Source of the DNA: Schlesneria sp.
Lineage (GTDB): Bacteria; Planctomycetota; Planctomycetia; Planctomycetales; Planctomycetaceae
Length of the DNA stretch: 64,000 nt
Assembly (NCBI GenBank): GCA_028291515.1
Contig: JAQGHU010000019.1
Location: 1 to 64,000 of the forward strand
Direction of reading: 5' to 3'
The position numbers and the translations under genes were made by a program. Position 1 is the stretch's first letter. The number at the start of each line of letters is the position of its first letter. Shown piece after piece: positions 8,963 to 64,000 of the stretch. The notes beneath the pieces were generated by a model. That model made no database searches, was not told the origin of the DNA, and saw only the letters and a list, made by a program, of their open reading frames with translations.

Positions 8963-8971
8963 TAGACGGCA

Positions 8972-9038
8972 TCTCGTAGGTTATGCTTCAGCATATCTCC
9001 GGAGCTCCAAAAGTTATGCTGAAGCATAACCTACGAGA
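8972..9038. repeat. 67-bp palindromic element between convergent genes
   Basis: Perfect 24-bp inverted repeat (arms 8972-8995 and 9015-9038) around a 19-base centre that itself contains GGAGCTCC. Each arm carries the unit also found alone at 8128-8150. It fills most of the gap between a rightward and a leftward gene, so in RNA it would form a long hairpin on either strand and could act as a bidirectional terminator or REP-like element. Confidence 0.85.
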
Positions 9039-9044
9039 AAATCC

Positions 9045-10493
9045 TCAAGCCAAAATGTTGCTGATCACATTCCCGCTGACATCCGTCAGCCGGAAGTCTC
9101 GGCCCTGGAACTTGTAGGTCAGGCGTTTGTGATCGATACCCAGTTGATGCAGAATCGTCGCATGCAAGTCATGCACATGCACGACATCGGTGACGGCGTT
9201 GTAACCGAAATCATCGGTCTGGCCGTGACTGATGCCTCCCTTGATCCCACCCCCGGCCATCCAGATTGAAAAGCCTTTGATATGGTGGTCGCGGCCATTT
9301 CCCTGGGCCATCGGCGTTCGACCGAACTCGCCGCCCCAGATCACCAGCGTCTCATCCAGCATGCCGCGTTGCTTGAGGTCCGCGATCAATGCCGCACACG
9401 GCGTGTCGACTTCCTTGGCGATCTGCGCGATCCCGTCGCGAACGCCGCCGTGATGATCCCAGTCGCGATGATAAAGCTGAATGAACCGCGCGCCGTGCTC
9501 GGCCAATCGTCGAGCCAGCAGGCAGTTCGCGTTCAATGACCCGTCCAATCCCGTGACACCGTAGGCGTCGAGAATGTGCTTCGGCTCCTTTGACAGGTCC
9601 ATCAATTCGGGGACACTCGCCTGCATCCGAAACGCCATCTCGTACTGATTGATGCGAGTGGCGATTTCGGGATCGTCGATGCTGGCATCCAATTGTCGAT
9701 TGAGCTGCGTCACCGCATCGACAACATCGCGCTGCTGATCGCGCGAGACTCCTGCCGGGTTGTTGATGTAGTAAACAGCGTCACCCTTGGAATTGAAGCG
9801 GACGCCCTGAAATCGGCTGGGCAGGAAACCGCTGTGCCACTGACGCGAGGCGATTGGCTGCTGCTGGCCGCTACGGCCCGTGGAAGTCAGCACGACATAA
9901 CCGGGAATGTCTTCGCAGTCGGCTCCCAATCCGTACCAGGCCCAGGACCCCATGCTGGGACGGCCCGAGATCGCGGTGCCGGTGTTCATAAACGTGTGAG
10001 CCGGGTCGTGATTGATCGCTTCGGTCACCAGCGAGCGGATGATGCACAGATCGTCTGCGACACTTCCCAGCTTGGGAAACTGATCGCAGATCTCCTGCCC
10101 CGACTTGCCGTACTTGGCAAACTTATGCTGTGGACCCAGGCACTTGAGCTGTTGCCCCTGCAATTGGGCGATCGGTTGCCCCTTCGTGATCGATTCCGGC
10201 ATCGGCTTGCCGTCTTGAGCGGCCAGTTCCGGTTTATAGTCCAGTGTCTCCAGGTGGCTGGGCCCGCCGGCCATGCACAGGTGAATGACTCGTTTTGCTT
10301 TCCTAGGAAAATGCAGTGGCGCAACGACACCTTGCTGGTAGTTCGCCGATTCTGCATCGGCCGCGGTCAATAATTTCGGGTTCAGTAGCGATGCCAGCGC
10401 CATCGCCCCCATGCCGCTGGTGGATCGCGTCAAAAACGACCGTCGCGACACTTCGCGCCGAGCGAATTCGTATTGTGAATCGAATGGGTTCAT
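9045..10493 (-). CDS. DUF1501 family exported protein (sulfatase/alkaline-phosphatase fold)
   Basis: 482 residues, full length for the family. A twin-arginine signal is visible (SRRSFLTRS, then a hydrophobic stretch MGAMALASLLNP). The body has the family landmarks: IHLCMAGGPSHLETLDYKPEL, the DHNPAH-like DPAHTFMNTGTAISGRPSMGSW, LLARRLAEHGARFIQLYHRDWDHHGG, and WGGEFGRTPMAQGNGRDHH, residues that in the alkaline-phosphatase superfamily bind metal. DUF1501 proteins are abundant in planctomycetes, often paired with DUF1549/DUF1553 cytochrome-type proteins, and are thought to act on sulfated or other polysaccharides. No such partner is adjacent here. The downstream end faces a strong palindrome. A second, divergent member lies at 28247-29614. 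Confidence 0.9.
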   Translation of the reverse strand: MNPFDSQYEFARREVSRRSFLTRSTSGMGAMALASLLNPKLLTAADAESANYQQGVVAPLHFPRKAKRVIHLCMAGGPSHLETLDYKPELAAQDGKPMPESITKGQPIAQLQGQQLKCLGPQHKFAKYGKSGQEICDQFPKLGSVADDLCIIRSLVTEAINHDPAHTFMNTGTAISGRPSMGSWAWYGLGADCEDIPGYVVLTSTGRSGQQQPIASRQWHSGFLPSRFQGVRFNSKGDAVYYINNPAGVSRDQQRDVVDAVTQLNRQLDASIDDPEIATRINQYEMAFRMQASVPELMDLSKEPKHILDAYGVTGLDGSLNANCLLARRLAEHGARFIQLYHRDWDHHGGVRDGIAQIAKEVDTPCAALIADLKQRGMLDETLVIWGGEFGRTPMAQGNGRDHHIKGFSIWMAGGGIKGGISHGQTDDFGYNAVTDVVHVHDLHATILHQLGIDHKRLTYKFQGRDFRLTDVSGNVISNILA

Positions 10494-49694: not shown

Positions 49695-50333
49695 TTAGCA
49701 GTCTCTCTGGCTGAACTGATGGACAAGGCTCGGATCGGCAATCCGCTGAAATGCGGCTTCGAATTCCGGTTGCTGTATGGTGCCGAGAATCGGCTGCAGT
49801 TTGCGGAACAGATAGCCCGCATCGCTGACCAGTAACGGATAACGGAGCAACGTGACTGGAATCGCGGTATTGGAGAGCGAAAGCAACAGCTTGTAGATCT
49901 GTTCCAGTAGCACCGCTTCCTGTTGAATCGGCTGCGAGGTGTGCCACACCCCTCCGGCGATGGCGGTGCTGAAGATGTGGGTGCGCAACCGCTTGAGCAC
50001 CGTCATGGTCGACAATGCCGCGTTGGTCACGAATCGGCGACTTTCCGCAGCCGCTTGCAGATCCCGCATCGGGATCAAGACACGCTCGATCGAGATGTCG
50101 TCTCGTCCCAGGACTTCTTCGGCATAGTCACAAAACCAGGGGCTCTTCACGATATAGGGAGCGTCCGATCGACGAATATCGTGTTCCAGTCCGGCTCGAG
50201 CCGTTTGACACTTGTGCTTGGCAATGTCCTTGGGTTGATACCCTGTTTCCAGTCCCAGATGAGTCAGCAATTCCACGAGAAACGAAGTCCCGGCGCGGCC
50301 TGTCCCCGAGATCACAATGTGCTTACGCGTCAT
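49695..50333 (-). CDS. Sulfotransferase-like P-loop protein
   Basis: About 212 residues. The start at 50333 (MTRKHIVISGTGRAGTSFLVELL) has AAAGAAGAA upstream; the frame extends further upstream without a start signal. The 5'-phosphosulfate-binding P-loop is SGTGRAGTSFL, and IERVLIPMRDLQAAAESR resembles the 3'-phosphate-binding motif of PAPS-dependent sulfotransferases. YIVKSPWF matches the usual conserved K-x-P. It is shorter than most sulfotransferases (about 250-300 residues). The acceptor is unknown; sulfated polysaccharides are common in planctomycete biology, and two DUF1501 proteins in the window belong to the same chemical neighbourhood. Confidence 0.7.
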   Translation of the reverse strand: MTRKHIVISGTGRAGTSFLVELLTHLGLETGYQPKDIAKHKCQTARAGLEHDIRRSDAPYIVKSPWFCDYAEEVLGRDDISIERVLIPMRDLQAAAESRRFVTNAALSTMTVLKRLRTHIFSTAIAGGVWHTSQPIQQEAVLLEQIYKLLLSLSNTAIPVTLLRYPLLVSDAGYLFRKLQPILGTIQQPEFEAAFQRIADPSLVHQFSQRDC

Positions 50334-51006
50334 GAGTTCTTCTTTACCTCTTGCGCGAATTGCATTCGCCGCCCTGACTCTGCAACGAAAATGCGACTGC
50401 GGTTCGTCAATCGTAATTGAGAACTCCGCATTGCCTGAATGTCCGACGATATTGGCGTTAAACGAAATCAGGACTGCAGCTTCCACGCTCGAATTGCAGA
50501 ATTCAGGCAAACCTCAGGTCGGGAGTCACAAGGTCGCAGAACGGGACTGAAATTAAGTTCGCATGAGTAGCAATCAATATCTCTTGCTGGTTTTCGAATG
50601 CGCCGACCAGTTCGTTTATGTGCCAAACGGGTTCGGAAGCCAAAGGATCGAAGTGGTCAATTTCAGTCCCTAGTGGGTTGCCCGCCATCACTCTTATGCT
50701 CGCCGTTAGCCCCCTGTGTCACTGGTAAAGTGGTATCTGCCTATTCGTGAGAGAGAGGCGGAAAGGTCTTGTTGGACGCGACTTCTGGTAGGAGCAATCG
50801 TGTCCACACGACTCGTAACATGGCGTTTCGTTCGAGCGCTCACGTCGGGCATTTGTCCGAACCAGGGTGGGCGAATCTGCAACCAATTCGATTGGCACGC
50901 GGATTGCCTTCACAGTCACCCGAGGGATCGAGAGGTTATGTGTCGCTGAAGATCGTGAGATCAAGAGCTACTTTCTCGACGCTATTCGAACGCCAAGGAG
51001 TGCATC
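50334..51006. other. Divergent intergenic region
   Basis: About 670 bases between the sulfotransferase-like gene and the CsbD operon, which are transcribed away from each other. It must contain both promoters. An AAGGAG ribosome site for the CsbD gene is at 50996-51001. No repeat or RNA was recognised. Confidence 0.4.
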
Positions 51007-51459
51007 ATGCTCAACCAGCAAACACTGTCGGGAAATTGGAACGATATCAAGGGTAAGATTCGTAAGAAGTGGGGACAGTTGTCCAATGACGATGTCCAAG
51101 TTTTCAATGGCAATGTCGATCAGCTGATCGGCATGATCCAGACCAAGACCGGCGAAGCCCGCAACAATGTGGAACGCTTCCTGGAAGAGGCGACCAGCAA
51201 TGGTGCCGCCGGCGTGAACCAGGCCGCAGAGGCGGTTCGCAATTATGCAACGGGTGCCGCGACACAGGCTCGCGACTATGCCGGTCAGGCGATGGAAGCT
51301 GTCGAGCAACGCTCGCAACAAGCTTACGACTCCGTTCGACAAGGTTACTCGGAAGCGGAAGATACCATTCGAAGTCGCCCTGCCGAATCAGTTGCCATCT
51401 GCTTCGGTGCCGGAGTGCTGACCGGACTGCTGCTGGCCCTGACGTTCCGTAACCGCTAA
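51007..51459 (+). CDS. CsbD-like stress protein with DUF883-type tail
   Basis: 150 residues. The N-terminus is a CsbD domain (LSGNWNDIKGKIRKKWGQLSNDDVQVFNGNVDQLIGMIQTKTGE), a stress-induced four-helix module. It continues into an amphipathic coil (AAEAVRNYATGAATQARDYAGQAM) and a C-terminal DUF883/ElaB-like membrane helix (SVAICFGAGVLTGLLLALTFRNR). This ties CsbD to the membrane in one polypeptide. A strong AAGGAG site precedes it. First of three similar small genes on the + strand. Confidence 0.85.
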   Translation: MLNQQTLSGNWNDIKGKIRKKWGQLSNDDVQVFNGNVDQLIGMIQTKTGEARNNVERFLEEATSNGAAGVNQAAEAVRNYATGAATQARDYAGQAMEAVEQRSQQAYDSVRQGYSEAEDTIRSRPAESVAICFGAGVLTGLLLALTFRNR

Positions 51460-51512
51460 GCCAAACGGACGCTGACCAGTCAGTTGTTTCCCAACTCCTG
51501 AATAAGGAATGC

Positions 51513-51755
51513 ATGATGATTGCCAGTATACCCACCTCACGTGACATGAATGAGTTTGCCACAGAGGCTCAAGAATGTGCATCGGGCATGGTCCGTGAAA
51601 ATCCGGCCCTGTCCATGCTTGTCGTATTCAGTGTTGGGATCGGCGTTGGGGCATTGATCGGTGAGGCCGTGTCGATAACGCGTGCTCGACCGAGTGCCAC
51701 CATGGCTGAACGCATTGGTCGCCAGATTTGCGACACGCTGAATATCAAGTTCTAA
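51513..51755 (+). CDS. Small DUF883-like membrane protein
   Basis: 80 residues. An amphipathic N-terminal segment (NEFATEAQECASGMVRENPALS) precedes one helix (MLVVFSVGIGVGALIGEAVS) and a short basic tail. Like ElaB/YqjD-type proteins that link ribosomes or stress responses to the membrane, though the match is loose. An AAGGAA site precedes the ATG pair at 51513/51516; the gap to the CsbD gene is 53 bases. Confidence 0.65.
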   Translation: MMIASIPTSRDMNEFATEAQECASGMVRENPALSMLVVFSVGIGVGALIGEAVSITRARPSATMAERIGRQICDTLNIKF

Positions 51756-51813
51756 GTGGCGAGTTGGCCGATGCAGTCTCAGCTACTGTAGCTTCGATGT
51801 TAAAGGAAGAATC

Positions 51814-52005
51814 ATGAGTCGATCACATTCCACGGCCCGCCGATTTGAAGACAGACCCTCTTCCTCGCGCGAGCGGGCCGTCCAGCAGCCTCTGGATGAC
51901 TTTGTCGCCTATCTCAGGAAGTATGCTCGCCAGGAACCTGAAGTCGCCGCCTGCGTTTGTCTTGGCGTCGGTTTCATCCTGGGTTGGAAACTGAAACCCT
52001 GGTGA
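51814..52005 (+). CDS. Very small membrane-anchored protein (DUF883-like)
   Basis: 63 residues, a charged N-terminal half (RRFEDRPSSSRERAVQQPLDDFVAYLRKYARQEPEVA) with a C-terminal helix (ACVCLGVGFILGWKLKPW). The AAAGGAAG ribosome site is strong. It closes the three-gene stress unit and shares the pattern of an R-x-x-P-E-x-A segment before the helix with the two preceding genes, suggesting duplication of a DUF883-type tail. Confidence 0.65.
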   Translation: MSRSHSTARRFEDRPSSSRERAVQQPLDDFVAYLRKYARQEPEVAACVCLGVGFILGWKLKPW

Positions 52006-52105
52006 TAGAAGCTCCAGTTTTTAATAGAAGCAGCCCGGTCGGCATTTGCGTTGATCGGGTTGTTTCGTTTTCTGAGGTGATTTCTAAGGCTTGGGAGCCA
52101 GCAAC

Positions 52106-52137
52106 AAAAAACGCCCCACGAGCAATCGCGGGGCGTT
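52106..52137 (-). terminator. Intrinsic terminator, leftward
   Basis: Read on the minus strand: AACGCCCC, a 12-base loop, GGGGCGTT, then six T (A 52106-52111 on the + strand). It fits a leftward transcript ending here, although no leftward gene is found in 52138-52423. Confidence 0.75.
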
Positions 52138-53073
52138 CCGCCAGTCTGGTGAGGGTCCACTACTGGCTTGCTCGCTGGTACACCCCTGAAGGTCTGCGTG
52201 GACATTCCATTCAAGAGGCATGTCAGCGGGTTTGATGTGTTACTGAAATTGTTCCGGGAACCCGGTGGCCGTCAAGCAACTGTTTCTACTTGCTCGCGAT
52301 TTATCTACGCTTGCTCGGTGAAGCGAGTCGAACACATCGAGACTTGAAGAGATTAGCGGGATCCATCAAGAGCGCAATGGAATCCTCCTCGCTCCAACAA
52401 GCCCGTCCTAGAGAGTACTCCGTAAAAAAAGCCCCCGCACAGAGCGCGAGGGCCTTTGGTCCCATCCCACAAAACAAGATTGTGGATCATCCTCCTTTTC
52501 GAGGGATGGGGGTCACTAGGGTAGCGAGCCTTGTGACTTCGTTGTTTCCCAATGCAATTGTTAAGGCACCCACCTTACAGTCAATGGCCTGTAGGCAGCG
52601 ATTTGGAATTCATCCGACTTCCCCATCGACTTGATTCCCATTTGCCAGCATCTCGGACCAGGGACAACGTGTTTGAAGTTCATCGGTCCCTCATGCCAGT
52701 TCAGGTCCGCTCTCGCGCGCTCGCCTGCTCCGCCAGGGCGACATTTTCAGAGGTCTTTCGTCCCGGTATCCGCCACCGCATTGGCAAAGGAGTTCGGCAT
52801 TTCGGGATGTCGGCTTTGGGCAAAGTCTGCAATCGCCATCAGACCCACGTCCGCATCGTAGCTACTACGACGCAGCGTGCCTTAGGCAAGCGTGTACGCC
52901 AACCCGCCCCTACCGAGGATGACGAAGCGGATCTAGAAGAAGTGCGGATCTCTCGGCTTCAGGGCTCCGATAGGAACCCAGGAAGTCCCGTTTACCATCT
53001 CTCGTCAGTGGGATACCAATTCCGCGCGTTCTTTCTAAATCACTTCCAGGAATACACCGCCTTTTGAACCTGG
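52138..53073. other. Gene-free region with possible small RNAs
   Basis: About 935 bases without a supported gene. On the minus strand it contains two ends marked by terminators (52106-52137 and 52424-52454) and a hairpin ATCCACAA-tcttg-TTTTGTGGGAT (about 52466-52487). The right part is where a long 3' untranslated tail of the serpin gene would lie. A small RNA in 52138-52423 is possible but not shown. Confidence 0.4.
52424..52454 (-). terminator. Intrinsic terminator, leftward
   Basis: On the minus strand GCCCTCGC, loop GCTCTGT, GCGGGGGC (one mismatch), followed by seven T. It could end the serpin transcript after a long 3' tail (about 620 bases) or end a separate small RNA. Confidence 0.7.
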
Positions 53074-54759
53074 TCAGGGAGCGACTGTAGACTTTGGGTC
53101 ACTAATCGATCCAGCAAACATCACCGTTTTGCTTGTCCCATCCACGACGAAAAACAGAAATGGACGATCGATATTAACTTCCGGAGGTGCACTCAATGAA
53201 CCGATGACTGCCGCCGTCACGGCCGTGGCAACGCTGCCGGACTCGTCGACTTTGAATTGTGTCCGTTGTTCGATCTCTTTTACGTATTGGGGTCCGTTGA
53301 GACCCAGAACATCGAACAAGCCATTTTTCGGACTGAACAGAGACTTCAAACCAAGCTTGGTCATTGTCTGCTTCACTGACTGCTTGTGTTCAAAAGTAAA
53401 CTTAGGAAGCCGTAGCGTGATATGCTGGGTTTGCACTTTGAGAACCGACTCGATCAGATTGCTGAGTTGACTCGCATCTGCTCGTGGACTTTTGACTGCA
53501 TCCGAGAGCTTTCCGTTCGGCATCACAGCAATAAAGTGCTGGTTTCCTGATCCGTACGGGATTGCCACCGACGTGAATGGATCGGAATCATCCTTTGATT
53601 TCAGCACCGCGAACCGGCCGGTTACGGTCATCGTCTCTCGTTGGACTTTTGTTCCGTCTGGCAATTCGAACATTCGAAGTGCAGTTCGATCATTTCGGAA
53701 GCGATTCGCCCAGACATTTCGAAACTTGCTGACGTTGAGTATCGCGACTTCGCTTCCACTCTCGTCCAGCAGTTGTTTCACTTTTGGCAGCAACGCGGCA
53801 GAACCACTTCGCTCCAACCACTCCGACATGCCTTTTTGGCCTTCACCGGAATTCGAGATGATCCCGATTCCAGCATCAACCGCCAGCGCCAGCCCTTCTT
53901 TGGAAGGTGACACCATCCCCGGTAGCAGAACGGCAGTTTCAGTTATCAATTGAGGCCGGTCTGAAGCTTGAGTTGCAGCGATGCTCAGGTCTCGTTCGAT
54001 TGCGAGTGCGCCCTTCTGCTTAAGAAGCAACTCGATCATGGCCTGACGAGACAAACTTGGCTGATCAGGTGTGGTTAGTTTGTCGCCGGCGCGTAAACCC
54101 ATCTGATAGGCGGGACTATCTCTAAACACAGTGGTGATTCGCCCCTGATCAGAAAGGACCAGGCCAAAGGTGCTTACCTGCAGCTCAAGTGGCGAAACCG
54201 GTCCACTGATTAAGCGCCGAAGCTCATCGCGGCCGGACAAATACCTTTTTGCCCCTGTCTCTATTGGTGGAATCCCCAGAACCTTAGCAATCTCCCCATC
54301 GTCGCCACTTCCGGACAATGCACCTATCGCTAACATGATCTCCAACGTCGCGAGAGGACAAGACAATGAATTCCCGCTGCCGCCGGCCGCTTCACGAAGC
54401 CCTTCGACGGCAATGTTCAACATTGCAAGTCGTGCCCATTCTGCGGTTGATGGCTTCGTAGATCGAACGAAGCTGTTCGCCTCGATATACCCACGTTCTT
54501 CTTTACCACTTAAATCCAGCTTAACTTCAACCCAGCCTGGGCTATCTCCAATCTTTTCAACGGACTGCCCGACTTGCAGCTTTGAAACAACCTTTCCTTG
54601 TAAACGAACTTCCAACGGACCCACTACCACTGTGAACGGTTCGCCAGCACACGATAGGCCAGACACTCCTAGGCCAACGCACGCTATCAGAACTCGCACT
54701 GTCCTTTCCCATTGCGTGGCCTTCATCTTCAATTCGCCAGAACATTTCGTGTATCCCAT
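53074..54759 (-). CDS. Exported serpin with SH3-like head and inserted PDZ domain
   Basis: About 561 residues. Start 54759 has GGAG upstream; 54726 is an alternative. After a signal peptide (VRVLIACVGLGVSGLSCAG), residues 42-97 resemble a bacterial SH3 domain. The serpin fold is then seen around 105-180 (NSLSCPLATLEIMLAIGALSG) and 300-561, with LRLPKFTFEHKQSV, the hinge VDESGSVATAVTA and the C-terminal RPFLFFVVDGTSKTVMFAGSISDPK. Residues 190-262 between them (GLVLSDQGRITTVFRDSPAYQMGLRAGDKL) form a PDZ-type domain inside the serpin fold. Counting from hinge Glu 506 as P17, P1-P1' is Leu 522-Ser 523, so a chymotrypsin- or elastase-like target is predicted. Third gene of the leftward unit. Confidence 0.85.
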   Translation of the reverse strand: MGYTKCSGELKMKATQWERTVRVLIACVGLGVSGLSCAGEPFTVVVGPLEVRLQGKVVSKLQVGQSVEKIGDSPGWVEVKLDLSGKEERGYIEANSFVRSTKPSTAEWARLAMLNIAVEGLREAAGGSGNSLSCPLATLEIMLAIGALSGSGDDGEIAKVLGIPPIETGAKRYLSGRDELRRLISGPVSPLELQVSTFGLVLSDQGRITTVFRDSPAYQMGLRAGDKLTTPDQPSLSRQAMIELLLKQKGALAIERDLSIAATQASDRPQLITETAVLLPGMVSPSKEGLALAVDAGIGIISNSGEGQKGMSEWLERSGSAALLPKVKQLLDESGSEVAILNVSKFRNVWANRFRNDRTALRMFELPDGTKVQRETMTVTGRFAVLKSKDDSDPFTSVAIPYGSGNQHFIAVMPNGKLSDAVKSPRADASQLSNLIESVLKVQTQHITLRLPKFTFEHKQSVKQTMTKLGLKSLFSPKNGLFDVLGLNGPQYVKEIEQRTQFKVDESGSVATAVTAAVIGSLSAPPEVNIDRPFLFFVVDGTSKTVMFAGSISDPKSTVAP

Positions 54760-54892
54760 TTGAGATCTCCGTATGCACATCGCTTCCGGACGATATCACT
54801 CGTCGCTGTCGTAGTACCACAGGCCTTTAGTCGCGAATATGCAATGCAACTCGCGTCGAACACTCTCGTCCACCTCAAATAGAAAGCTGGCA

Positions 54893-56059
54893 TCAGCTTC
54901 TCGGCTCGAGACGATATACAATCGTCTGCTTCCCTTGCTTTCTGAATTTCAACACTTCGTTCTTGACGTTCTCTTCGTGCGGATAAGTGAGTTCGAGATA
55001 ATCCAAGTTGGAAATGAACGAACCCTGCACAGCGGTTTGCAAAGCCGGAAACAACTCCTTCCACGAGAGCACCTGATTACCGTCCAATTCCAAGCCAGTC
55101 GAATCGATCGCGTACCGCTCAATCAGAGCGAGCAGTGGTGTTGTGAGGCAACCGCCACGATCACATATTAGGGCGAGTTCGGGAGGAGTACTTGAATTGA
55201 CATCGAAGAACCCTTTCGATCGCATGAACAAGTCTATCATCGATTCCTTGTCTGCTCTCACGTTCCCCAATGCCCCCCCCCGCTCGCTCCGAACAACCAG
55301 CTTACTCTTGAGCTTAATGCCGCTGCACGAATCCGAGATGAGGCAAAGCAGTCGAGCGCCACTGTCATTCATAGCTGTTCGAAGATCATCTCGCTTGAGG
55401 TCTTGGCCTCGCTCGTCATCGTTTGGTAGATCGAGTATGTGGTGCAATTCCCCGCTGTCGTCCTCATCTGTTTTCCCGTGCCCTAAATACCACACCACCA
55501 GGGTCTGAGAAGTGATCTGCGGATCACTTGAGATACTTGCAATTCTGGCCTTAAAGATCTCCGCAGTAGTGCCCTGTTCCATTCCCCATTCATCAACGAT
55601 CAGTTCATCAGGTGCAAATGTCGTCCGAAAATGCTTGGCTACGTGTGCCGCGTCGCTCGCCAAAAAACTCTTAACTTCGTCGTCTGCTCCATCATGAATC
55701 AACAAAAGCCGAACTACCGTTGCCAGCTGGCCCCCATTTGGCAACTTCTGACCACCGTTGGGTATGGGCAATTTGTTGGTATCGGTCGTACCGGGAATGA
55801 ACGGGACAACAGTATTGGGCTCGCCTCCGCCGCCAATTGGTGGAGTCACCGGCGGATAGTTAATAGTTGGCGGGCAAATGGGTGTGTAAACGGGCTGGCA
55901 AACGCAGCGTTGATTACATCTGCTCGCCCGATTGACGATCCTTTGGTACTTTCGAGGACTACAACACCCGCGAAGCGCACCGCCAAACACCGGCGTGGTG
56001 CCTATCACACTCGCGATGCACAGAATGACGGTGAGGACCTTAACTAGCTCTCGTCTCAT
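54893..56059 (-). CDS. Exported caspase-like (orthocaspase) protein
   Basis: 388 residues. GGAGAG lies just upstream of the start at 56059. After a signal peptide ending near residue 27, a Cys-rich then Pro-rich stretch (30-100) leads to a caspase-like domain at 115-390. The catalytic dyad is placed at His 194 (VVWYLGHG) and Cys 245 (LISDSCSG), and LLLIHDGADDEVKSFLASDAAHVAKHF forms the first strand and helix. Caspase-like proteases in bacteria cleave after basic residues or Asp and act in cell death, defence and development. Export to the periplasm is unusual. It sits between the CsgG-like and serpin genes, 74 and 133 bases away. Confidence 0.82.
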   Translation of the reverse strand: MRRELVKVLTVILCIASVIGTTPVFGGALRGCCSPRKYQRIVNRASRCNQRCVCQPVYTPICPPTINYPPVTPPIGGGGEPNTVVPFIPGTTDTNKLPIPNGGQKLPNGGQLATVVRLLLIHDGADDEVKSFLASDAAHVAKHFRTTFAPDELIVDEWGMEQGTTAEIFKARIASISSDPQITSQTLVVWYLGHGKTDEDDSGELHHILDLPNDDERGQDLKRDDLRTAMNDSGARLLCLISDSCSGIKLKSKLVVRSERGGALGNVRADKESMIDLFMRSKGFFDVNSSTPPELALICDRGGCLTTPLLALIERYAIDSTGLELDGNQVLSWKELFPALQTAVQGSFISNLDYLELTYPHEENVKNEVLKFRKQGKQTIVYRLEPRS

Positions 56060-56132
56060 TATGACTCTCCAAAATGATAGTATGGGGTAAAGCAGACTCG
56101 CGCGGGTTCATTATTGCCTTGGACACGCGGCG

Positions 56133-57557
56133 CTAGTCGCTGGTGATTGGTACAAATGTGATCTTTGGTTCTGGCACATTTGTGCGATAGAAGATGCGCC
56201 AGACCTCCACTGGATTAGAGTGCAACTTTACCGTGAACTGTTGGACGGGGTTCTTTTGATTAGCCCCGGCTCCGACCTTGGGACCCTCAAGACCACCGGC
56301 ACCCGTCCGCATGTCAGCATCTCCGAGGTCTTCTGGATAGAAGTGAACCTCAATCATGCCAATTGAATTTGTTACTCCAACGGTCTCGGCGACCGACGGC
56401 TTGGCATCGGTAAACAGAAACTTCGCTGCAGTTGCATCGGCGCCGGAACCTTGCTGGAAGCCTGGAATGTTCACCTGCCAGTGTTTCACATCATTGGGGG
56501 TGGGATTATCGATTAGTTTCCCGTCGCCCACCATTTTCCCCTTGGGTGTCAGAATCCACTTGTTTACATTCTTCGGCAGTCTGACTTCTGGCACATATTG
56601 AAGCTGCTCTTCTGGCATGGCGCTACCAGTTTTGTACCGAGGATTCGGAATGTAAAAAGAGCTTACCCCATCTAGTAGCACTGCAGCGGCGTAGCATCGA
56701 TTGGCGTCGTTTGGATGCTTCCACCCTACCGCCGGTGCACCGTTGTTTGTCAGGCGAATCGAGAACTCTTTTTCAAGCAATGACGGATCTAGTAGCAGGA
56801 AGAAGACGTTGTGATAGGGCGATTCCGGTTTTCCATCGACCTTTCCCTTCTTCAGCTCCAACTCTTGAGCACCGACGAAGAACTGGACATTAAAACGGCC
56901 ACTGGGTTTCTGCACGGGAGAGGGAAGTGTGCTGCCGGCGAATCCTTCTTGGGGGGGAATATTACTTGCCGCGGCCTTCGCCGAAATGACCACCAGCTCG
57001 GGCTTCACCTCGACCTCCTTCTTCTCCGCGGCATTTTTGAAGTCCAAGTTGCCCAATACGGCAGCATCGATTCCGACAGTCTTTAAGATCTTCCCTGTGG
57101 CCGCCGGATCAGCAGATATGACTCCCGAGGGGTCGACGCCAGCGGTTTGAAAATACCTTCGCAGGCCACCAGAAGGGATTATGAAGTATTTGCGCGAAGG
57201 ATCGGTTTCATTGGTTACGAGTGTGGTCAACTGACTGATTATCTCGCCCTGCATCGCAATGGATGTACTCGCACTCGACTCGGTGACATTTCCATTGCTG
57301 TCGCCGATTGGGAAGACGGCGGTCTTGAAGGTCTGAGAGGCCCCTTTTTGGTCTTCGATCTGCTTGTGAATGTCTTTAATAACGCGAGAGACGTAGTCGG
57401 CAGCGTCACCGCTCCCTTTAGGCTTAGGCTGCGGCTGTGCGTCTACCTGGTTCGTGGACACAATCGTACCCGCGGCGATCAACGCCGCCACGAACGACAG
57501 TCGTTTGTAGTTTGAGGATCGCCTATCGCTAAAGTGACGCAGGGTTGATCGGAGCAT
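56133..57557 (-). CDS. Exported protein with CsgG/FlgO-like N-terminal domain
   Basis: About 474 residues. The start at 57557 has AAAGGAA upstream; an earlier ATG at 57596 lacks one. The signal peptide ends near residue 41 (VDAQPQPKPKG). Residues about 70-190 (TAVFPIGDSNGNVTES, IAMQGEIISQLTTLV, KYFIIPSGGLRRYFQTAGV, GIDAAVLGNLDF) follow the strand-helix pattern of CsgG/FlgO-type proteins, which form periplasmic or outer-membrane assemblies. The C-terminal half is beta-rich, with a WKHPNDANRCYAAAVLLDG segment. No closer family recognised. First gene of the leftward unit with the caspase-like and serpin genes. Confidence 0.6.
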   Translation of the reverse strand: MLRSTLRHFSDRRSSNYKRLSFVAALIAAGTIVSTNQVDAQPQPKPKGSGDAADYVSRVIKDIHKQIEDQKGASQTFKTAVFPIGDSNGNVTESSASTSIAMQGEIISQLTTLVTNETDPSRKYFIIPSGGLRRYFQTAGVDPSGVISADPAATGKILKTVGIDAAVLGNLDFKNAAEKKEVEVKPELVVISAKAAASNIPPQEGFAGSTLPSPVQKPSGRFNVQFFVGAQELELKKGKVDGKPESPYHNVFFLLLDPSLLEKEFSIRLTNNGAPAVGWKHPNDANRCYAAAVLLDGVSSFYIPNPRYKTGSAMPEEQLQYVPEVRLPKNVNKWILTPKGKMVGDGKLIDNPTPNDVKHWQVNIPGFQQGSGADATAAKFLFTDAKPSVAETVGVTNSIGMIEVHFYPEDLGDADMRTGAGGLEGPKVGAGANQKNPVQQFTVKLHSNPVEVWRIFYRTNVPEPKITFVPITSD

Positions 57558-58033
57558 GGTATTCCTTTGTAGAACGATGGAGTTCAATCTAAACACTTGA
57601 AGGCTGAGGAAGCTGTACCTAAGTTCCCCGTTGATTTAGTTGGCTTTCGACGAAGCACAGCTTGGTTTGCAGCGCAACTGCCAGAATTATTGAACGCTTA
57701 CCCCCGTGAATCAGTCGGGCAACCGGGTTGACGTTCCGTCGATCGCGGAGCGTAACAGTGATGAGTTTGGACAGTCGCGTCGGCCACGCTGCAATCCCTA
57801 TCGCAATCGCCTATCAAGAATCTTGATTCTGAGGCATCGATTATCGGAATGCGGGACTCAACCAGGGCAATTCCGACGGGTGTTTATCCGTGAGAGTGCG
57901 CCGCGCGTTCTGGCTCGGGGGGACAATTTGAATGCACGCGTTCGCGCCTTGGCGACGGGTGCAGGGCGTTATAGACTGGTCGCTGGCGACTCGAAGTCTT
58001 GGGCCAATTTGATTCGTTGCCAAGGTACGAAGA
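57558..58033. promoter_or_regulatory. Divergent promoter region of the kinase/caspase locus
   Basis: 476 bases between the leftward CsgG-like/caspase/serpin unit and the rightward sigma factor/kinase unit. It must contain promoters for both. No unambiguous ECF -35/-10 pair or operator could be picked out by eye. An AAGG lies nine bases before the sigma-factor ATG. Confidence 0.5.
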
Positions 58034-58699
58034 ATGTTAGAGCTGGACGATAGGTATGTTGAGTACTCGGTAAGCACTATCACGACGACACTTTTGGAAC
58101 GCGCGAAAACCGGCGAGGAGGATGCCTGGTCTTGTGTGGTGTATCTGTATGGGCCGCTGGTCTACAAGTGGTGCCGAAAACGAGGACTTTCCAGAGAAGC
58201 AACGAGGGACGTCGCTCAGAATGTGTTTGAAGTCGTGGCGAGAAAGCTAAAGGACTTCCGTCGCGAGGACGCCTCGAATACATTCCGCGGGTGGCTCCGT
58301 GCTATCTCTGACAATAAGATTTCTGATTATTGGCGCGACCAATATAAGTGTCCGGACCGAGTTTCTGTCGAAGATCCGCACCGATCGTTGGAGCAGGTTC
58401 AATTCAGGGAAGAAATCGACAATGGGTCGGATGTACAGGACTCCCTCGATATTTTCGAGAGGGTACTGCAATACGGAAAAGCGCGCGTCAATCCTAAACA
58501 CTGGGAGGTCTTCTGGCGCGTCATTGTCGATGAGGAAGACCGACACGAAATCGCCGCTTCGCTCGAAATAAAACGCGCGAACGTCGATGTCATCGTGTCA
58601 CGAGTTCTGGCTAAGTTGAAGGAAACCTTCGGCGACGTATTCGAGGATCGAGGCAGTCCTTTTCATGAGCCACGCCAAGAATCTGATGGCCACCAGTGA
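58034..58699 (+). CDS. ECF-type RNA polymerase sigma factor
   Basis: 221 residues. Sigma-2 region: AWSCVVYLYGPLVYKWCRKRGLSREATRDVAQNVFEVVARKLKDFRRED and FRGWLRAISDNKISDYWRDQ. Sigma-4 region: NPKHWEVFWRVIVDEEDRHEIAASLEIKRANVDVIVSRVLAKLKE, a helix-turn-helix for -35 recognition. This is the planctomycete class linked to Ser/Thr kinases rather than to a separate anti-sigma gene. Its stop overlaps the kinase start (GTGATGA), indicating translational coupling. It is probably controlled by phosphorylation or by binding to the kinase N-terminus. Confidence 0.92.
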   Translation: MLELDDRYVEYSVSTITTTLLERAKTGEEDAWSCVVYLYGPLVYKWCRKRGLSREATRDVAQNVFEVVARKLKDFRREDASNTFRGWLRAISDNKISDYWRDQYKCPDRVSVEDPHRSLEQVQFREEIDNGSDVQDSLDIFERVLQYGKARVNPKHWEVFWRVIVDEEDRHEIAASLEIKRANVDVIVSRVLAKLKETFGDVFEDRGSPFHEPRQESDGHQ

Positions 58700-61600
58700 T
58701 GAATGAAGCAAGTACACCATTCGTTTGCGCTTGCCCCAGCTTGGAGGTCCTGGCGTCGTTCGCTCGAGGGCAGATGGCCGTCGTAGAGATCGACTTACTA
58801 GGGGAACATGTTATTCAGTGCACCCGCTGCGAGTCGTTACTCGATACGCTTCAAAAGGATCGGAACACTGTTTTCTCCCGACTCAGACAAGCTGCGCGAC
58901 GCGAGTCCAATGAGCTGGGCGAACTCCTAGCAGAACGAGAGTACCAGGAATTCGCAAGAAATGCTTGCGCCATCAAGCTTGCCAATTCTGTGGCGACCGA
59001 AACGACAAAAGTATACTCCCCCCAGCCGGGGCGTTCGGCAAGTTCGCTTCCCACAATGATCTCCCGCTATCTGATCACGCGTGAGATCGGTCGAGGAGGA
59101 TTTGCGACTGTCTACTTGGCTCATGATCCTCATAAAATGCGCCAAGTCGCCATTAAAATTCCGCGGCGCGACAAATTCATTTCTCCCGAAAATCTGGACC
59201 GATTCCTGGGCGAGGCACGGATCGGAGCGGCACTAGATCACCCGTCGATCGTTCCCGTCCTGGATTGGGGCACAGCGGACGGGATCGGACCATTTGTGGT
59301 CATGGATTACGTCAACGGTCAGACACTCGCGGAACTGTTAGATGCGCGCCAGATGGATCGACGGACATTGGTCGAGATCATGATCAATGTCGCTCAGGCC
59401 TTGCATCATGCGCACAAACTTGGACTGGTGCATAGGGATGTGAAGCCTCAGAACATTTTGATTGATGCTGGTATCAAACCGTTCGTCGTAGATTTTGGCT
59501 TGGCCATTCGCGACGAAGAGTTGTGGAATCATCGCGGAGAATTGGCGGGCACCCGGGCGTACATGGCACCCGAACAAGTGCGCCGCGAATCCCACCGATT
59601 GGATGGTCGAACCGATCTGTGGGCACTTGGGGTGATCCTTTTTCAGGCTTTGACGACTAAGCTCCCTTTCAGCGGAGGGACAGTCGCCCAATTAGAAGAC
59701 GAGATTCAACACAGAGACCCCAAACCGCCGCGCCAGATCGATGACACAATTCCCAACGATCTGGAACGCATCTGCCTAAAGTGTCTGTCAAAGAAAATGA
59801 CAGATCGTTATTCGACCGCTCTAGATTTCGCAAATGAATTGCGGCGCACGTCGGAATCCGGTTCGGCATTGGCACGGCCACCAGAAGTACGATCGGACTC
59901 TGTCATTCCAAAGGGAGTTCGGCCGTTCGGCTCTGAAGATCAACATTTTTTCTTGGAGTTGTTGCCTGGGCCGCGAGATGCGATGGGGTTGCCAGACTCG
60001 ATTCGTTCATGGAAAGCCCGTCTAGATATAGCCGATCCGGGCTTAGTGCCTCCGATTGCGGTCTTGTATGGACCATCGGGATGTGGGAAATCTTCGTTTG
60101 TGCGCGCAGGATTATTGCCTCGCCTGGGCTCGCACATAGTCCACGCTTACGTCGACGCGTGTGGCCAAGATGTCGAGCTACGTTTGCTGAGAACCTTGCA
60201 GCACAAGTATCGAGACTTACCCAAGGACGCGAATCTCGTCGAAACCATCGCCAGCCTGCGTGCCGGCAATTATTTTCCTATTGGAAATAAGAAGTGCCTC
60301 ATTGTACTGGACCAGTTTGAACAGTGGCTGCATTCCAGCGGAGCAAACATTGATGGGCCACTCATCCGAGCACTTCGACAATGCGATGGCGAACATGTTC
60401 AGTGCCTGCTGCTGGTGCGCGATGACTTCTGGATGGCGCTAACGCGGTTTATGAACGAGTTGGAGATCCCGCTCTCAGAGGGACAGAATTGTGCAGCGGT
60501 GGACTTATTTAATTCGCAGCATGCCCGAACAGTCTTGACACTTTTCGGCAAATCATTCGGCACCCTACCGACCCGTGTTGACTCGCTGACTGTTGAGCAG
60601 AATTCCTTCTTGGACTCTTCTATAGAGCAGCTCTCTTTCAACGGACGAGTTGCTTGTGTGCGACTCGCGCTTTTCGCGGAAATGGTGAAGAGTAAACCGT
60701 GGGTGCCGGTGACACTCAGGCAACTCGGCGGTGTCGAAGGGGTCGGAGTTACGTTTCTGGAAGAGTCCTTCGGGAAATCTGCGCCGGCCAGACATCGTCT
60801 CCACAGGGAGCCAATCCGAGCCATACTCGCCGCGCTCCTTCCCAAGGACGGGACTGAGATTCGAGATCAGAATCAATCGATTGCGAGTTTATTGACTATC
60901 TCAGGCTGCATCCCCTCTACAAAACAGTTTGAAGAAATCTTACGCATCCTCGACCAGGAGTTGCGGTTGATTACGCCAGTGGACTCATTTCTCGCGATCA
61001 ATAGCCGTCCCAATGATGACCCCGTTGAGTCGCCACTTTCCAGGCAATACTATCAGCTGACCCATGACTACCTTGTGCCATCCATACGGGACTGGCTAAA
61101 TCGCAAGCGTCGCGAGACGAGGCGAGGCCGCGCCGAATTGTTACTGGAAGAACGGGCTCGACTGTGGAGCACCAATTGCGATCGAAAGCAGCTTCCTTCG
61201 CTTTTCGAATGGTTCCGAATTCTGTCTCTTACTCGAAGGTCTGACTGGAATACTCACCAACTGCAACTGATGAGGGTAGCTTCTCGATATTACACAACTT
61301 GGACCACATTAAGACTACTAGGTCTCGCAGTCGTGGCCGTAGTCGGGATTGGCGCCTACGGTTATCTTCGCGGATCTTGGTTAGTCGATAGCCTGAGAAC
61401 AGCAGATACGGGCAGTGCTGGATTAGTGATACGGCAGCTCCAGAGTTATTCGTATTGGACCCGGGCAAAGCTACGTGGCAAACAACCTGATTCGAATCAA
61501 CAACTCCATTTCGAATTGGCAGCCTTCGCACTTGGCGACGAGATTGATTTGACGCCTTGGATATTGGAGGCTTCTCCGAAGGAGCTGGAATTATGCCTCA

Positions 61601-63279
61601 CAGTCGTCAATAATGGGCGCTTTAGTCGTGCGGTTTCCGAGCGTCTCTGGAAAGTGTTAGAGGACGATACGCGAGCGGCAGAATATAGGTTTCGCGCAGC
61701 GTGTGGTTTAGCAAGCCTGGATCCCGACAACAACAAATGGGCATCCGTCGCGGATCGCGTCGCTGACTTGCTGCTATTGCAGGAAAGCCATCTCGCGGAC
61801 GAGTGGGTTGAACTGATGAGACCAGTTGGCCATCGACTGGTCGACGCCTTGCAAAACCGATTCCTGCAACCTGTTGGCCGCAGCGGCAGCGAACGGTACG
61901 TCGCTGCAGTCGCTCTGGCGGAGTTTTGCGAACGAGACCTAAATAGACTCGTTGCAATGTTGAAAAACTCGACTTCTGAGCAAGTGCTATTCTTGCGTAA
62001 ACTTGAGCAGAAATGCTCGGCAGCGACGGCCATACTAGAAGCGGAGTTCGCGGCAACAGCATCTATAACCGGCATCCAGCAAGACCAAGAACTCTTTGAA
62101 CAACAATATGCTCGGATCGGAGCCAGTCTGATTCTGCTGGGGCAACCTGAGGCGGTCTGGCTCGCATTCGAACATCAATCCGATCCAACTCGACAGACTT
62201 TGTTGGTTGATCAGCTCGCTGCTTGGCATATTGATCCATTTGTGTTATGGGAACAACTTCAAAAGACATCCAGTCCTTCGGCTAAATACCTACTCATTCT
62301 GGCGCTTGGCGAGTACACTAATTACGAATTGATTTCAAAAAGCGGCGACGACTTGCTGAGCCACCTCATAAATCTACAAGCGGAAGATCCTGATCCTAGC
62401 GTCCATTCTGCGGCCGGCTGGCTACTGGGTCGATTGAATCCCCGACAAACCCAGTCGTTAACACGGCATAATACTATATATTCTTCGATCGAAGGCGGGC
62501 TGAAGTGGCACAATGACAATGAAGGCCATACCATGACGATCATAAACACGCCCGGTGAGTTTCTTATGGGGTCGCCGGATAACGAGTCCGATCGCCAAGC
62601 CGACGAATTACGGCACGCACGGAGAATCGACTACTCGTTCGCGATGGCTACCAGTCCCGTTACGATCGCCCAGTATCGACGCTCCGGTGGTATCGATCGC
62701 AGCAATCGCGAAAGCGATATTAACCAGCCAATTGATTTCGTTGATCTTGAGGACGCCATGAAGTATTGCAACTGGCTTTCCTCTAAAAACCACATTCCTG
62801 AGCACGACTGGTGCTATCAGTCTCGCGATGCCGGCGGAACTGCGGTGCTGCATCCGGTCGACACGATCTTATCGAAACCGGGTTATCGTTTACCCACTGA
62901 AGCGGAATGGGAATTCGCATGCCGGGCGGGGACTGTATCAACCCGCTTTTGCGGCAATTCACAAAAGGTGCTCAGCAAGTACGCATGGCTCTTCGAAAAC
63001 TCCGAAGGAAAAATGCATCCTGTTGCGCAATTGAGGCCGAATCAATATGGTCTCTTTGATCTTTACGGTAACGTCGGCCAATGGTGCCAGACGTCGTATC
63101 ACGATTATGACCAAAAAAGAAACGACGGCGTACTCACTTATCAACTGCATGGAAGCATGAGTTTTCGAGGTTGCACTTACGATTCACGTCCCAAGGTTGC
63201 ACGAAGTGGAAGAAGGGGACGTTCGCTATCAGCACCGTTGAGCGCGATTGGTTTTCGCGTAGCAAGATCACTTCCATAG
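58696..63279 (+). CDS. Ser/Thr kinase - nSTAND NTPase - FGE-like sensor membrane protein
   Basis: 1527 residues. Residues 8-60 are a Cys-containing head (CACPSLEVL...HVIQCTRCESLL), like the sigma-binding region of planctomycete kinases. The kinase is at about 127-390: Gly-loop GRGGFATV, Lys in VAIKIPR, HRDVKPQN near 246, DFG near 265, APE in MAPEQVR. An nSTAND-type NTPase follows, with Walker A LYGPSGCGKSSFVRAGLL near 458 and Walker B CLIVLDQFEQW near 535. One transmembrane helix is at about 867-890. An alpha-helical region leads to a formylglycine-generating-enzyme-like (FGE) domain at about 1270-1527 (GEFLMGSPDNESD, YRLPTEAEWEFACRAGT, GLFDLYGNVGQWC, FRGCTYDSRPKVARSG, IGFRVAR). The paired catalytic cysteines of true FGE are missing, so it is likely a binding module outside the membrane. 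Confidence 0.9.
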   Translation: MMNEASTPFVCACPSLEVLASFARGQMAVVEIDLLGEHVIQCTRCESLLDTLQKDRNTVFSRLRQAARRESNELGELLAEREYQEFARNACAIKLANSVATETTKVYSPQPGRSASSLPTMISRYLITREIGRGGFATVYLAHDPHKMRQVAIKIPRRDKFISPENLDRFLGEARIGAALDHPSIVPVLDWGTADGIGPFVVMDYVNGQTLAELLDARQMDRRTLVEIMINVAQALHHAHKLGLVHRDVKPQNILIDAGIKPFVVDFGLAIRDEELWNHRGELAGTRAYMAPEQVRRESHRLDGRTDLWALGVILFQALTTKLPFSGGTVAQLEDEIQHRDPKPPRQIDDTIPNDLERICLKCLSKKMTDRYSTALDFANELRRTSESGSALARPPEVRSDSVIPKGVRPFGSEDQHFFLELLPGPRDAMGLPDSIRSWKARLDIADPGLVPPIAVLYGPSGCGKSSFVRAGLLPRLGSHIVHAYVDACGQDVELRLLRTLQHKYRDLPKDANLVETIASLRAGNYFPIGNKKCLIVLDQFEQWLHSSGANIDGPLIRALRQCDGEHVQCLLLVRDDFWMALTRFMNELEIPLSEGQNCAAVDLFNSQHARTVLTLFGKSFGTLPTRVDSLTVEQNSFLDSSIEQLSFNGRVACVRLALFAEMVKSKPWVPVTLRQLGGVEGVGVTFLEESFGKSAPARHRLHREPIRAILAALLPKDGTEIRDQNQSIASLLTISGCIPSTKQFEEILRILDQELRLITPVDSFLAINSRPNDDPVESPLSRQYYQLTHDYLVPSIRDWLNRKRRETRRGRAELLLEERARLWSTNCDRKQLPSLFEWFRILSLTRRSDWNTHQLQLMRVASRYYTTWTTLRLLGLAVVAVVGIGAYGYLRGSWLVDSLRTADTGSAGLVIRQLQSYSYWTRAKLRGKQPDSNQQLHFELAAFALGDEIDLTPWILEASPKELELCLTVVNNGRFSRAVSERLWKVLEDDTRAAEYRFRAACGLASLDPDNNKWASVADRVADLLLLQESHLADEWVELMRPVGHRLVDALQNRFLQPVGRSGSERYVAAVALAEFCERDLNRLVAMLKNSTSEQVLFLRKLEQKCSAATAILEAEFAATASITGIQQDQELFEQQYARIGASLILLGQPEAVWLAFEHQSDPTRQTLLVDQLAAWHIDPFVLWEQLQKTSSPSAKYLLILALGEYTNYELISKSGDDLLSHLINLQAEDPDPSVHSAAGWLLGRLNPRQTQSLTRHNTIYSSIEGGLKWHNDNEGHTMTIINTPGEFLMGSPDNESDRQADELRHARRIDYSFAMATSPVTIAQYRRSGGIDRSNRESDINQPIDFVDLEDAMKYCNWLSSKNHIPEHDWCYQSRDAGGTAVLHPVDTILSKPGYRLPTEAEWEFACRAGTVSTRFCGNSQKVLSKYAWLFENSEGKMHPVAQLRPNQYGLFDLYGNVGQWCQTSYHDYDQKRNDGVLTYQLHGSMSFRGCTYDSRPKVARSGRRGRSLSAPLSAIGFRVARSLP

Positions 63280-63324
63280 CTTGGAAGTGCCTAGATCATT
63301 CCGCCCTACAATAGAAGGATGAAC

Positions 63325-63675
63325 ATGACGTCAAATTCTAGTGGTGATGCAATGCAAAGTAGTTCTAGCTCGATGTCCAGTTCTACCACTGGTTCGAGTT
63401 CTAGCTCTAGTTCTGGATGCGAATGCCCGCCGCATAACGCCAATTTGTACGCCGGGGATGCCTGCTTTGAATGGGCCGGTCTTGTCCCCGGATGGGTCGT
63501 GGTTAGCAACGATTGCAGGTCAGGCTACATCCCGTCCGAACCCCAGAATCCAGGTAAGTATGGCCAGAAAATCCGTACCGAATGCATTCTTGATCCCGGC
63601 CGCTCGAGCTCAAGCGCGGTGTCGAGTTCAAGCACGGTCCCGTCTCCCACATCTAGCTCTAGCGCAGGGACTTGA
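63325..63675 (+). CDS. Small Ser-rich protein with Cys-containing core
   Basis: About 116 residues. Start 63325 is chosen because AGAAGG lies six bases upstream; the ATG at 63319 touches that site. Two runs of serine (SSSSMSSSTTGSSSSSSS and SSSSAVSSSS) flank a 65-residue core with CECPPHNANLYAGDACFEWAGLVPGWVVVSNDCRSGY and TECILDPG, five cysteines in all. No signal peptide is visible. It lies 45 bases after the kinase stop, so it is probably in that unit. Ser-rich, Cys-containing proteins of this style occur in planctomycetes as surface or carrier proteins. No function known. Confidence 0.6.
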   Translation: MTSNSSGDAMQSSSSSMSSSTTGSSSSSSSGCECPPHNANLYAGDACFEWAGLVPGWVVVSNDCRSGYIPSEPQNPGKYGQKIRTECILDPGRSSSSAVSSSSTVPSPTSSSSAGT

Positions 63676-63776
63676 AGTTGGTTCGCCTCGCATGTTCCAC
63701 CTCTGCAGAATAGATCCTCAAAATCAAGGAGACATTTGATGCCGGAGTCGTGTGCGCCTGCGAACCACATGACCTT

Positions 63777-63934
63777 CTAGTCGATAGGACGAGCCGATTT
63801 TGGTCGCGCTTGCAACTCATGAAACAGCCGGAACGCCTCGCCTTGTTGGACCCGAGATTGATCTGCTTCCCGCTTGACACGACGAACCAGGCTTTTCGGG
63901 ATTTTCGATACCAAGGAAATGCACGACGAGCCAT
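63777..63934 (-). pseudogene. Degenerate N-terminus of a tyrosine-recombinase-type integrase
   Basis: On the minus strand from 63934, MARRAFPWYRKSRKAWFVV then SSGKQINLG matches the start of planctomycete phage-type integrases (an AP2-like or SAM-like N-terminal segment, W-Y-x-K-x-R-x-A-W-x-V, then a K-x-x-x-L-G motif). The expected continuation, GEAFRLFHELQARPKSARPID, is readable in a different frame and meets a stop at 63777. The piece is therefore frameshifted and truncated to about 50 residues, with no catalytic domain. It marks a past insertion next to the kinase locus. Confidence 0.6.
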
Positions 63935-64000
63935 GACGCAATCCTTTCAACTCAAGAAGTAAGAACATTCCCGAGCGAGCTGAAAGGTTCGCCGAACGCC

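Follow-up and report, generated by a model that had tools for sequence, protein, structure and literature searches.

A caspase-like protease gene and a serpin gene form a recurring pair in planctomycetes, beside a divergent sigma factor/kinase locus in Schlesneria sp.

The window analysed here is a 64,000-nucleotide stretch at the start of contig JAQGHU010000019.1 of Schlesneria sp. (assembly of 8.59 Mb in 119 contigs). Toward its end lies a divergent locus. Genes for a protein of no known family, a caspase-like protease and a serpin are read in this order from the minus strand, and genes for an extracytoplasmic function (ECF) sigma factor and a kinase-containing membrane protein from the plus strand (Table 1). 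A first-pass annotation of the sequence had joined six genes here into one theme and proposed that the set be sought in relatives. In relatives the six-gene set is not a conserved unit; the recurring thing is the smaller caspase-serpin pair, and proteins with a domain that we designate CAB recur near caspases. The earlier observation was mostly right, its theme too wide, and a better-supported pair lies inside it. We hold, with moderate confidence, that the locus encodes an exported module in which a caspase-like protease has a serpin dedicated to it, and that in this genome the module stands beside a divergent sigma factor/kinase regulator.

The caspase-serpin pair across genomes

Among 84 caspase-like genes compared, 10 are followed by a serpin gene on the same strand, where about 0.005 (0.0047) would be expected by chance. 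Profile scans of flanks placed these loci in the window and in genomes G019, G031, G085, G078, G146, G170, G045, G518 and G529 (G and L numbers are our labels for genomes and loci). They span four taxonomic families of the class and several places on the caspase tree; G019 (Planctomycetaceae bacterium HKST-UBA52) and G031 (HKST-UBA70) belong to the family of the window. The serpin is the next same-strand gene in nine of the ten, the order in G529 being caspase, CAB protein, serpin, and the G031 pair was pieced together from two contigs with 150 identical bases at their ends. The gap between the genes ranges from -20 to +159 nt in seven pairs besides that of the window, where it is about 166 nt, the likely serpin start being the ATG at 54726. 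The two genes are probably co-transcribed. The chance of three independent caspase-serpin neighbours is small (P 1.7e-8) under a null built on 263 serpin matches among 397 genomes (a manual sum that counts no more than four in any genome) and roughly 1.1 kb per gene. Because five of the 84 genes (one of them linked) have less than 600 nt fetched downstream, 10 of 84 is a minimum.

The caspase tree comprises 84 rows from 81 chosen loci above E 1e-15, weaker matches being left out, as were L264, L290 and L292 (G404, G527 and G516), which passed the threshold. On this tree the linked state needs seven changes (six to seven in bootstraps; 3 of 500 shuffles gave as few), at least three of them on well supported branches, so the pair was repeatedly retained or formed. 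The surroundings of other serpins and kinases provide the controls. The 45 loci of 48 unlinked serpins held no caspase, no CAB protein and no ECF match, and eight held a kinase, in fetched flanks that mostly reach 5-8 kb to either side (in L338, L340 and L341 the contig stops shortly before the serpin on its upstream side). No caspase or serpin was present in the fetched flanks of the 14 loci with homologs of the window's kinase-nSTAND-FGE protein (L074-L087, L074 starting at a contig end).

These counts come from overlapping genome sets: 397 genomes of the class, 45 of family f2, 170 of the window's family, 149 of family f5 and 392 of the phylum. An initial protein search of 59 genomes, the window's own included, had given matches to the kinase in all 59, to the caspase in 6, to the serpin in 23 and to the exported protein of no known family in 3. 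The first class-wide caspase profile (A1) was swamped by PDZ matches and was rebuilt without PDZ (A3). A scan of genome contigs with A3 gave no usable stretch; a contig scan with three close rows gave five loci, two of them already known (G019 and G031).

The identification of the window's protease as caspase-like, made in the first-pass annotation, stood. The protein has no Pfam match, Peptidase_C14 included, and its match to the NCBIfam EACC1-caspase family is weak (26.7 bits, below the cut-off of 140). The catalytic His and Cys are invariant across 21 aligned proteins (the window's and 20 relatives), and the family profile weakly matched MALT1 and metacaspase-1 in the PDB (E 0.0015 and 0.0024), and also caspases. 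An AlphaFold2 model of moderate quality (mean predicted local distance difference test, pLDDT, 61; predicted TM-score 0.58) returned caspase-8, MALT1 and caspase-3 as top Foldseek matches (E ~1e-7; TM-score of the best match 0.35 by query). We assign the gene product a predicted caspase fold and putative membership of family C14, clan CD, on the dyad and this model. Among linked relatives, Peptidase_C14 is over its cut-off in G085, G031, G518 and G529 and just below it in G078; Pfam did not report it for the G146, G170 and G045 proteins.

All ten linked caspases keep the His, the Cys and an acidic residue two positions before the Cys (Glu in G170, Asp in the others). In metacaspases and MALT1 an acidic residue at this place favours Lys or Arg at P1, which hints at a Lys/Arg specificity for the linked enzymes. 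PDZ domains follow the protease domain, over the Pfam cut-off, in five of the eight linked caspases submitted (G078, G146, G170, G518 and G529; G019 was left out of this search). Pfam found none in G085, G031 and G045; a PDZ-like C-terminal stretch is visible by eye in G085, G019 and G031, Pfam being silent on the first and last of these.

Other arrangements of the caspase were seen along the way. In L056 (4242-5447, with 2089-4194; G019) and L061 (6576-7790, with 7787-10156; G054) a caspase-PDZ gene adjoins one for a HEAT/alpha-beta-hydrolase-like protein (by eye), which recalls the caspase/alpha-beta-hydrolase pairing of VMAP systems described in the accessible text of PMC7159879. One open reading frame in L062 (6464-8686; G046) combines a subtilisin-like N-terminal part (by eye) with a caspase-like C-terminal part and lies beside a second caspase-like gene.

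The serpin assignment of the first-pass annotation held up well. The window's protein scores 136.1 bits against PF00079 (cut-off 27), covering profile positions 139-370 only, and the nine other linked serpins are all over the cut-off. Matches of the window's serpin to SH3_3 (20.1 bits) and PDZ_6 (18.2 bits) are each below the Pfam cut-off. A PDZ profile trained solely on caspases matched 6 of 10 linked serpins, the window's among them, and none of 48 unlinked ones (Fisher 5e-6; none of 49 with fragment L137 added). Pfam reports PDZ beside a serpin match in two stretches over the cut-off in G078, G146, G170 and G518 and below it in G529, and no PDZ in the linked serpins of G085, G019, G031 and G045. 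In the window's own serpin the putative PDZ-like insert within the serpin fold is weak.

The linked serpins also separate on a tree. It was built from the C-terminal 275 residues, leaving out the truncated G518 serpin, fragment L137 and duplicates, and one branch divides all nine linked serpins from the 48 unlinked ones, which were the best-scoring matches, with no random draw (support 98/86; none of 500 shuffles as low). With L318, L191, the window and a long unlinked row (L039) removed, the six remaining linked serpins are still separate (94/88), and with the window restored so are seven of seven (98/90, bootstrap not settled). The linked serpins look like a specialised lineage.

The CAB partner and the sigma factor/kinase genes

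The remaining minus-strand gene had been called CsgG-like, an identity that we reject: its product has no match in Pfam, NCBIfam or, by profile, the PDB. A seven-row profile found nothing better than E 0.09 in the PDB, and six homologs gave no convincing Pfam match, one matching a non-CsgG family at chance level. Homologs of this protein lie near caspases in G019, G078, G146, G170 and G529. With a profile of its CAB domain, 11 caspase loci, counting that of the window, proved to have a CAB protein in the fetched flanks, although certain of these matches are weak (L155, E 2e-5) or distant (L211, about 5 kb away). The profile matches the caspase open reading frame itself in L265, L271, L295 and L298, and in L239 too if a weak caspase match is counted. 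In our reading the module often has a third, predicted exported partner with a CAB domain. A DUF2330-like protein precedes the caspase in G085 and G031 (19.6 bits in G085, below the cut-off of 24.7).

Two further contexts of this protein are recorded here. In L055 (4251-6806) a caspase-PDZ protein whose dyad residues are apparently lost is fused to a part related to the exported protein (phmmer E 5e-5); the fusion gene adjoins separate genes for a caspase-PDZ protein and a relative of the exported protein. CAB proteins are also found beside kinases, of the kinase-nSTAND-FGE type in G005 and of the zinc-finger type in G028. The G005 locus (L081, 346-15461), from the same genus, has three tandem kinase-nSTAND-FGE paralogs followed by a CAB protein.

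On the plus strand the first-pass identities were all confirmed over family cut-offs. The sigma factor scores 61.3 bits against TIGR02937 (cut-off 42.9) and 34.9 bits against PF04542 (cut-off 24). The kinase, nSTAND1 and FGE domains of the adjoining protein exceed their Pfam cut-offs and HEAT falls below; by eye, the catalytic cysteine pair of FGE is apparently absent. An ECF sigma domain and, on the adjoining kinase protein, an HX3CX2C zinc-finger motif are both present, and the zinc-finger/kinase/nSTAND protein is probably the anti-sigma regulator and sensor of the ECF factor.

G518 has a layout like that of the window: its serpin and caspase share a strand with a further exported protein, and on the opposite strand an ECF gene lies divergent beside them, then a kinase. 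It is the only such case among the nine caspase-serpin loci outside the window (P 0.047); with the window counted there are two of ten against 0.053 expected (P 0.0014). The sigma factor of G518 differs in type (PF07638), and the G518 kinase has WD40, with no nSTAND or FGE among the 25 families listed. The earlier claim that the divergent sigma factor is joined to the module is weakly supported, the evidence for the join being modest. Five ECF queries and the kinase query matched nothing in the fetched flanks of G085, G078, G146 and G170. G045 has a kinase on the opposite strand, where 1.5 of 10 loci would be expected to have a kinase within eight genes; a transposase-like remnant (by eye; L191, 11721-12308) lies between its caspase-serpin pair and this kinase.

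A sigma-like gene lies directly upstream of 3 of 14 homologs of the window's kinase (L079, L082 and L084, by reading), and HX3CX2C occurs in three of nine other kinases with the N-terminus checked (L079, L083 and L057; L074 is cut by its contig). Because of this recurrence, the sigma factor/kinase pair looks like a separate unit that is sometimes joined to caspase-serpin genes.

The first-pass annotation went further and saw a single circuit of six genes, in which an FGE-like sensor acts through the NTPase and the kinase on the sigma factor and the exported proteins are induced. Such a circuit is compatible with an exported caspase-serpin module, and we consider it rather unlikely. It gains from the G518 layout, from the count of two loci in ten with the window included, from the lack of any ECF match at the 45 other serpin loci and from the CAB proteins beside kinases in G005 and G028. 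It loses by the different sigma type and kinase domains of G518, by the drop to one in nine without the window, by the 14 kinase-nSTAND-FGE loci that show neither caspase nor serpin, and by the commonness of kinases, given the chance expectation above and the eight among 45 other serpin loci that have one.

The reactive loop, competing explanations and known systems

In the working that we propose, the protease would act outside the cytoplasm on surface or neighbouring proteins. PDZ and CAB domains would bring protease, substrate and serpin together, and the serpin loop would trap or restrain the protease, keeping its activity brief or confined to one place. In this genome the divergent ECF sigma factor and the zinc-finger/kinase/nSTAND protein may switch the unit on. 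Gene order, recurrence, domain make-up and the separate serpin group are observations; co-transcription, binding of the two proteins to each other, inhibition, export and control by the sigma factor are predicted. The more specific proposal, that planctomycetes use a PDZ-inserted serpin lineage as a covalent, dedicated brake of an exported caspase, with CAB partners and sometimes a sigma factor/kinase/nSTAND switch as a form of extracytoplasmic control, we put forward tentatively.

In the window's serpin, GSVATAVTAAVIGSL-SAPPEV aligns to an antitrypsin-type loop, and a hinge of small residues is present. Lys-Ser occupies the same loop place in the serpins of G019, G031 and G085, and Lys or Arg lies nearby in G078, G146 and G529; the G170 serpin has Asp, without a basic residue in the loop window.

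Several results weigh against a protease with its dedicated serpin. In the window's serpin the predicted P1 aligns as Leu, which counts against simple suicide inhibition in this genome because the caspase looks Lys/Arg-specific. Basic residues at the loop site show no clear enrichment, being present in 5 of the 8 linked and 12 of the 46 unlinked serpins that were scored (p 0.09), so that the excess is not significant; the scored serpins were drawn from 9 linked and 48 unlinked ones, and G045 was scored on a doubtful hinge. With G529 counted by eye the linked figure becomes 6 of 9 (p 0.046). A basic P1 as a family rule is therefore not upheld, and the G045 serpin, with its unusual hinge, may not be inhibitory. 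Long branches, very long in three linked serpins, make the serpin tree fragile; this tree is also unrooted, and the bootstrap of the caspase tree had not settled. No serpin lies in the fetched flank of 74 of the 84 related caspase genes. The AlphaFold2 model of the window's serpin, from a two-row alignment, reached a pLDDT of 32, so the placement of the PDZ-like stretch in the serpin is taken from sequence. On balance we consider a partnership likely, and direct suicide inhibition likely for no more than a part of the pairs; that of the window fits it least.

Part of this evidence would suit a serpin that guards the cell surface against foreign or own serine- or subtilisin-type proteases, the caspase being a separate part of a surface or predation module. 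The shared operon would then reflect that both are needed together, one not inhibiting the other. The Leu in an alpha-1-antitrypsin-like frame and the Asp of the G170 loop agree with this, as does the frequency of serpins with no caspase neighbour (a serpin is present in 170 of the 397 genomes of the class; none of the 45 loci has a caspase). The distinct grouping of the linked serpins, with PDZ inserts that match the use of PDZ in the linked caspases, speaks against a guard of this kind, and we regard it as unlikely.

We find it improbable that the linked serpin has become a non-inhibitory scaffold, whose fold and PDZ hold or fold the caspase or present substrates and whose loop has lost its trapping role. 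Most linked loops keep a pattern of inhibitory serpins, with Thr or Ser at P14 and small residues from P12 to P9, even though their hinges differ from the EEGTEAAAAT type prevailing in the unlinked serpins, the branches are long and the G045 hinge is degenerate. Coincidence of neighbours we find scarcely credible overall. For caspase and serpin it is very unlikely, since their adjacency is repeated elsewhere and absent around 45 other serpin loci, although the caspase is nearly missing from the genus and the locus is lower in guanine plus cytosine (GC) than most of the window (about 0.52-0.53 against 0.53-0.60; see below); the sigma factor/kinase pair may be a chance neighbour.

The favoured pairing of an exported caspase-like protease with its own serpin has counterparts elsewhere. 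Poxvirus CrmA is an example of serpin control of caspase-type proteases; to our knowledge, the own targets of bacterial serpins are mostly unknown. According to the accessible text of PMC10609998, plant and green-algal serpins inhibit metacaspases (AtSerpin1 with AtMC9 and AtMC1; CrSERPIN with CrMCA-I), so that there too a serpin restrains a caspase-related protease; those systems are eukaryotic, whereas in the bacterial pair the two genes are neighbours and their products are probably exported. Metacaspase-like proteins, the caspase homologs of prokaryotes, share the caspase domain, the His-Cys dyad and operons with varied partners (PMC3501461, accessible text), while a word search of that main text returned no serpin, PDZ or inhibitor. 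Prokaryotic serpins of periplasmic or secreted classes share the fold and the export (PMC8233489, accessible text). They differ in that a word search of that source returned no operon or planctomycete, and the 48 unlinked planctomycete serpins have no PDZ match. Among the matches listed in our literature search (titles and abstract starts; most subscription literature lies outside), none was to a bacterial caspase-serpin gene pair or a PDZ-inserted serpin.

The first-pass annotation had also linked parts of the locus to NTP-dependent conflict systems. The EACC1/EACC2 and VMAP systems of Kaur et al. do share caspase and FGE-type parts, and in gene neighbourhoods an ECF sigma factor accompanies EACC2 and caspase genes (accessible texts of PMC7159879 and PMC8195603). 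A word search of the two main texts returned no serpin, and an N-terminal signal is visible by eye on the window's caspase. In a search confined to the six window proteins, every EACC and vWA/MoxR family stayed below its cut-off. With the caspase far below the EACC1 cut-off and no caspase or serpin at any of the 14 kinase loci, membership is not borne out. Regulation by a Ser/Thr kinase is one of five modes of ECF control (PMC8103513, accessible text), and here likewise sigma factor and kinase are adjacent; the kinase differs in also carrying the zinc-finger motif and nSTAND, HEAT-like and FGE-like parts.

The recurring pair suggests that dedicated serpins may keep caspase-like enzymes in check in bacteria as well. 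If the tentative brake model holds, the system would be a bacterial counterpart of the serpin-braked protease cascades of animals and plants. Because a candidate target gene adjoins the serpin, its function is directly testable. With a recurring exported caspase, the cell surface would join the cytoplasm as a place to ask what caspases do in bacteria.

Layout of the locus

The open reading frames lie where the first-pass annotation had placed them (Table 1). All three minus-strand products have a hydrophobic N-terminus by eye, from which their export is predicted. The sigma factor gene overlaps the start of the gene for the 1527-residue kinase protein, whose FGE-like domain would lie outside the membrane, as judged from one hydrophobic stretch. 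The divergent intergenic region contains one 12-nt direct repeat and three inverted repeats.

Table 1. Genes and domains of the divergent locus, in window coordinates.
Feature	Position	Strand	Description	Basis
Serpin, predicted exported	53074..54726	-	N-terminal signal (by eye), SH3-like region, serpin domain with PDZ-like insert	PF00079 E 2.3e-39; best PDB match conserpin-AATRCL, E 2.4e-20; linked-serpin alignment
PDZ-like stretch inside serpin domain (approximate)	54001..54141	-		Sub-threshold PDZ_6 match (E 0.0021); E 4.7e-4 with the local PDZ profile; Pfam PDZ matches at the corresponding place in five other linked serpins
Caspase-like cysteine protease, predicted exported	54893..56059	-	Dyad His (LGHG) and Cys (SDSC)	Alignment, PDB profile, AlphaFold2 model, Foldseek
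Protein of no known family, predicted exported	56133..57596	-	C-terminal domain is CAB	Homologs near caspases
ECF sigma factor	58034..58699	+		TIGR02937, PF04542
Membrane protein	58696..63279	+	Zinc-finger motif HX3CX2C, Ser/Thr kinase, nSTAND1, HEAT-like repeats, FGE-like domain	Pfam (HEAT below cut-off), HX3CX2C motif, long homologs in relatives
Kinase domain	59074..59817	+	HRD and DFG in sequence	PF00069 E 5.6e-44
nSTAND1 NTPase domain	60052..61176	+		PF20703 E 1.1e-14
FGE-like domain	62539..63267	+	Predicted outside the membrane	PF03781 E 2.2e-32

A short Ser-rich open reading frame (63319-63675) follows the kinase gene. It could encode a genuine exported protein of low complexity, or be open by chance; it matches no Pfam or NCBIfam family, and we found no reason to include it in the locus.

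In 14 other genomes of the genus, the caspase profile found nothing at E 1e-8 in 13 and a weak match (1e-10) in the last. Positions 50000-64000 have a GC content of about 0.52-0.54; elsewhere in the window it is 0.53-0.60. The lower GC and the absence of the caspase from the genus, apart from that weak match, make it possible that this part of the window was recently acquired.

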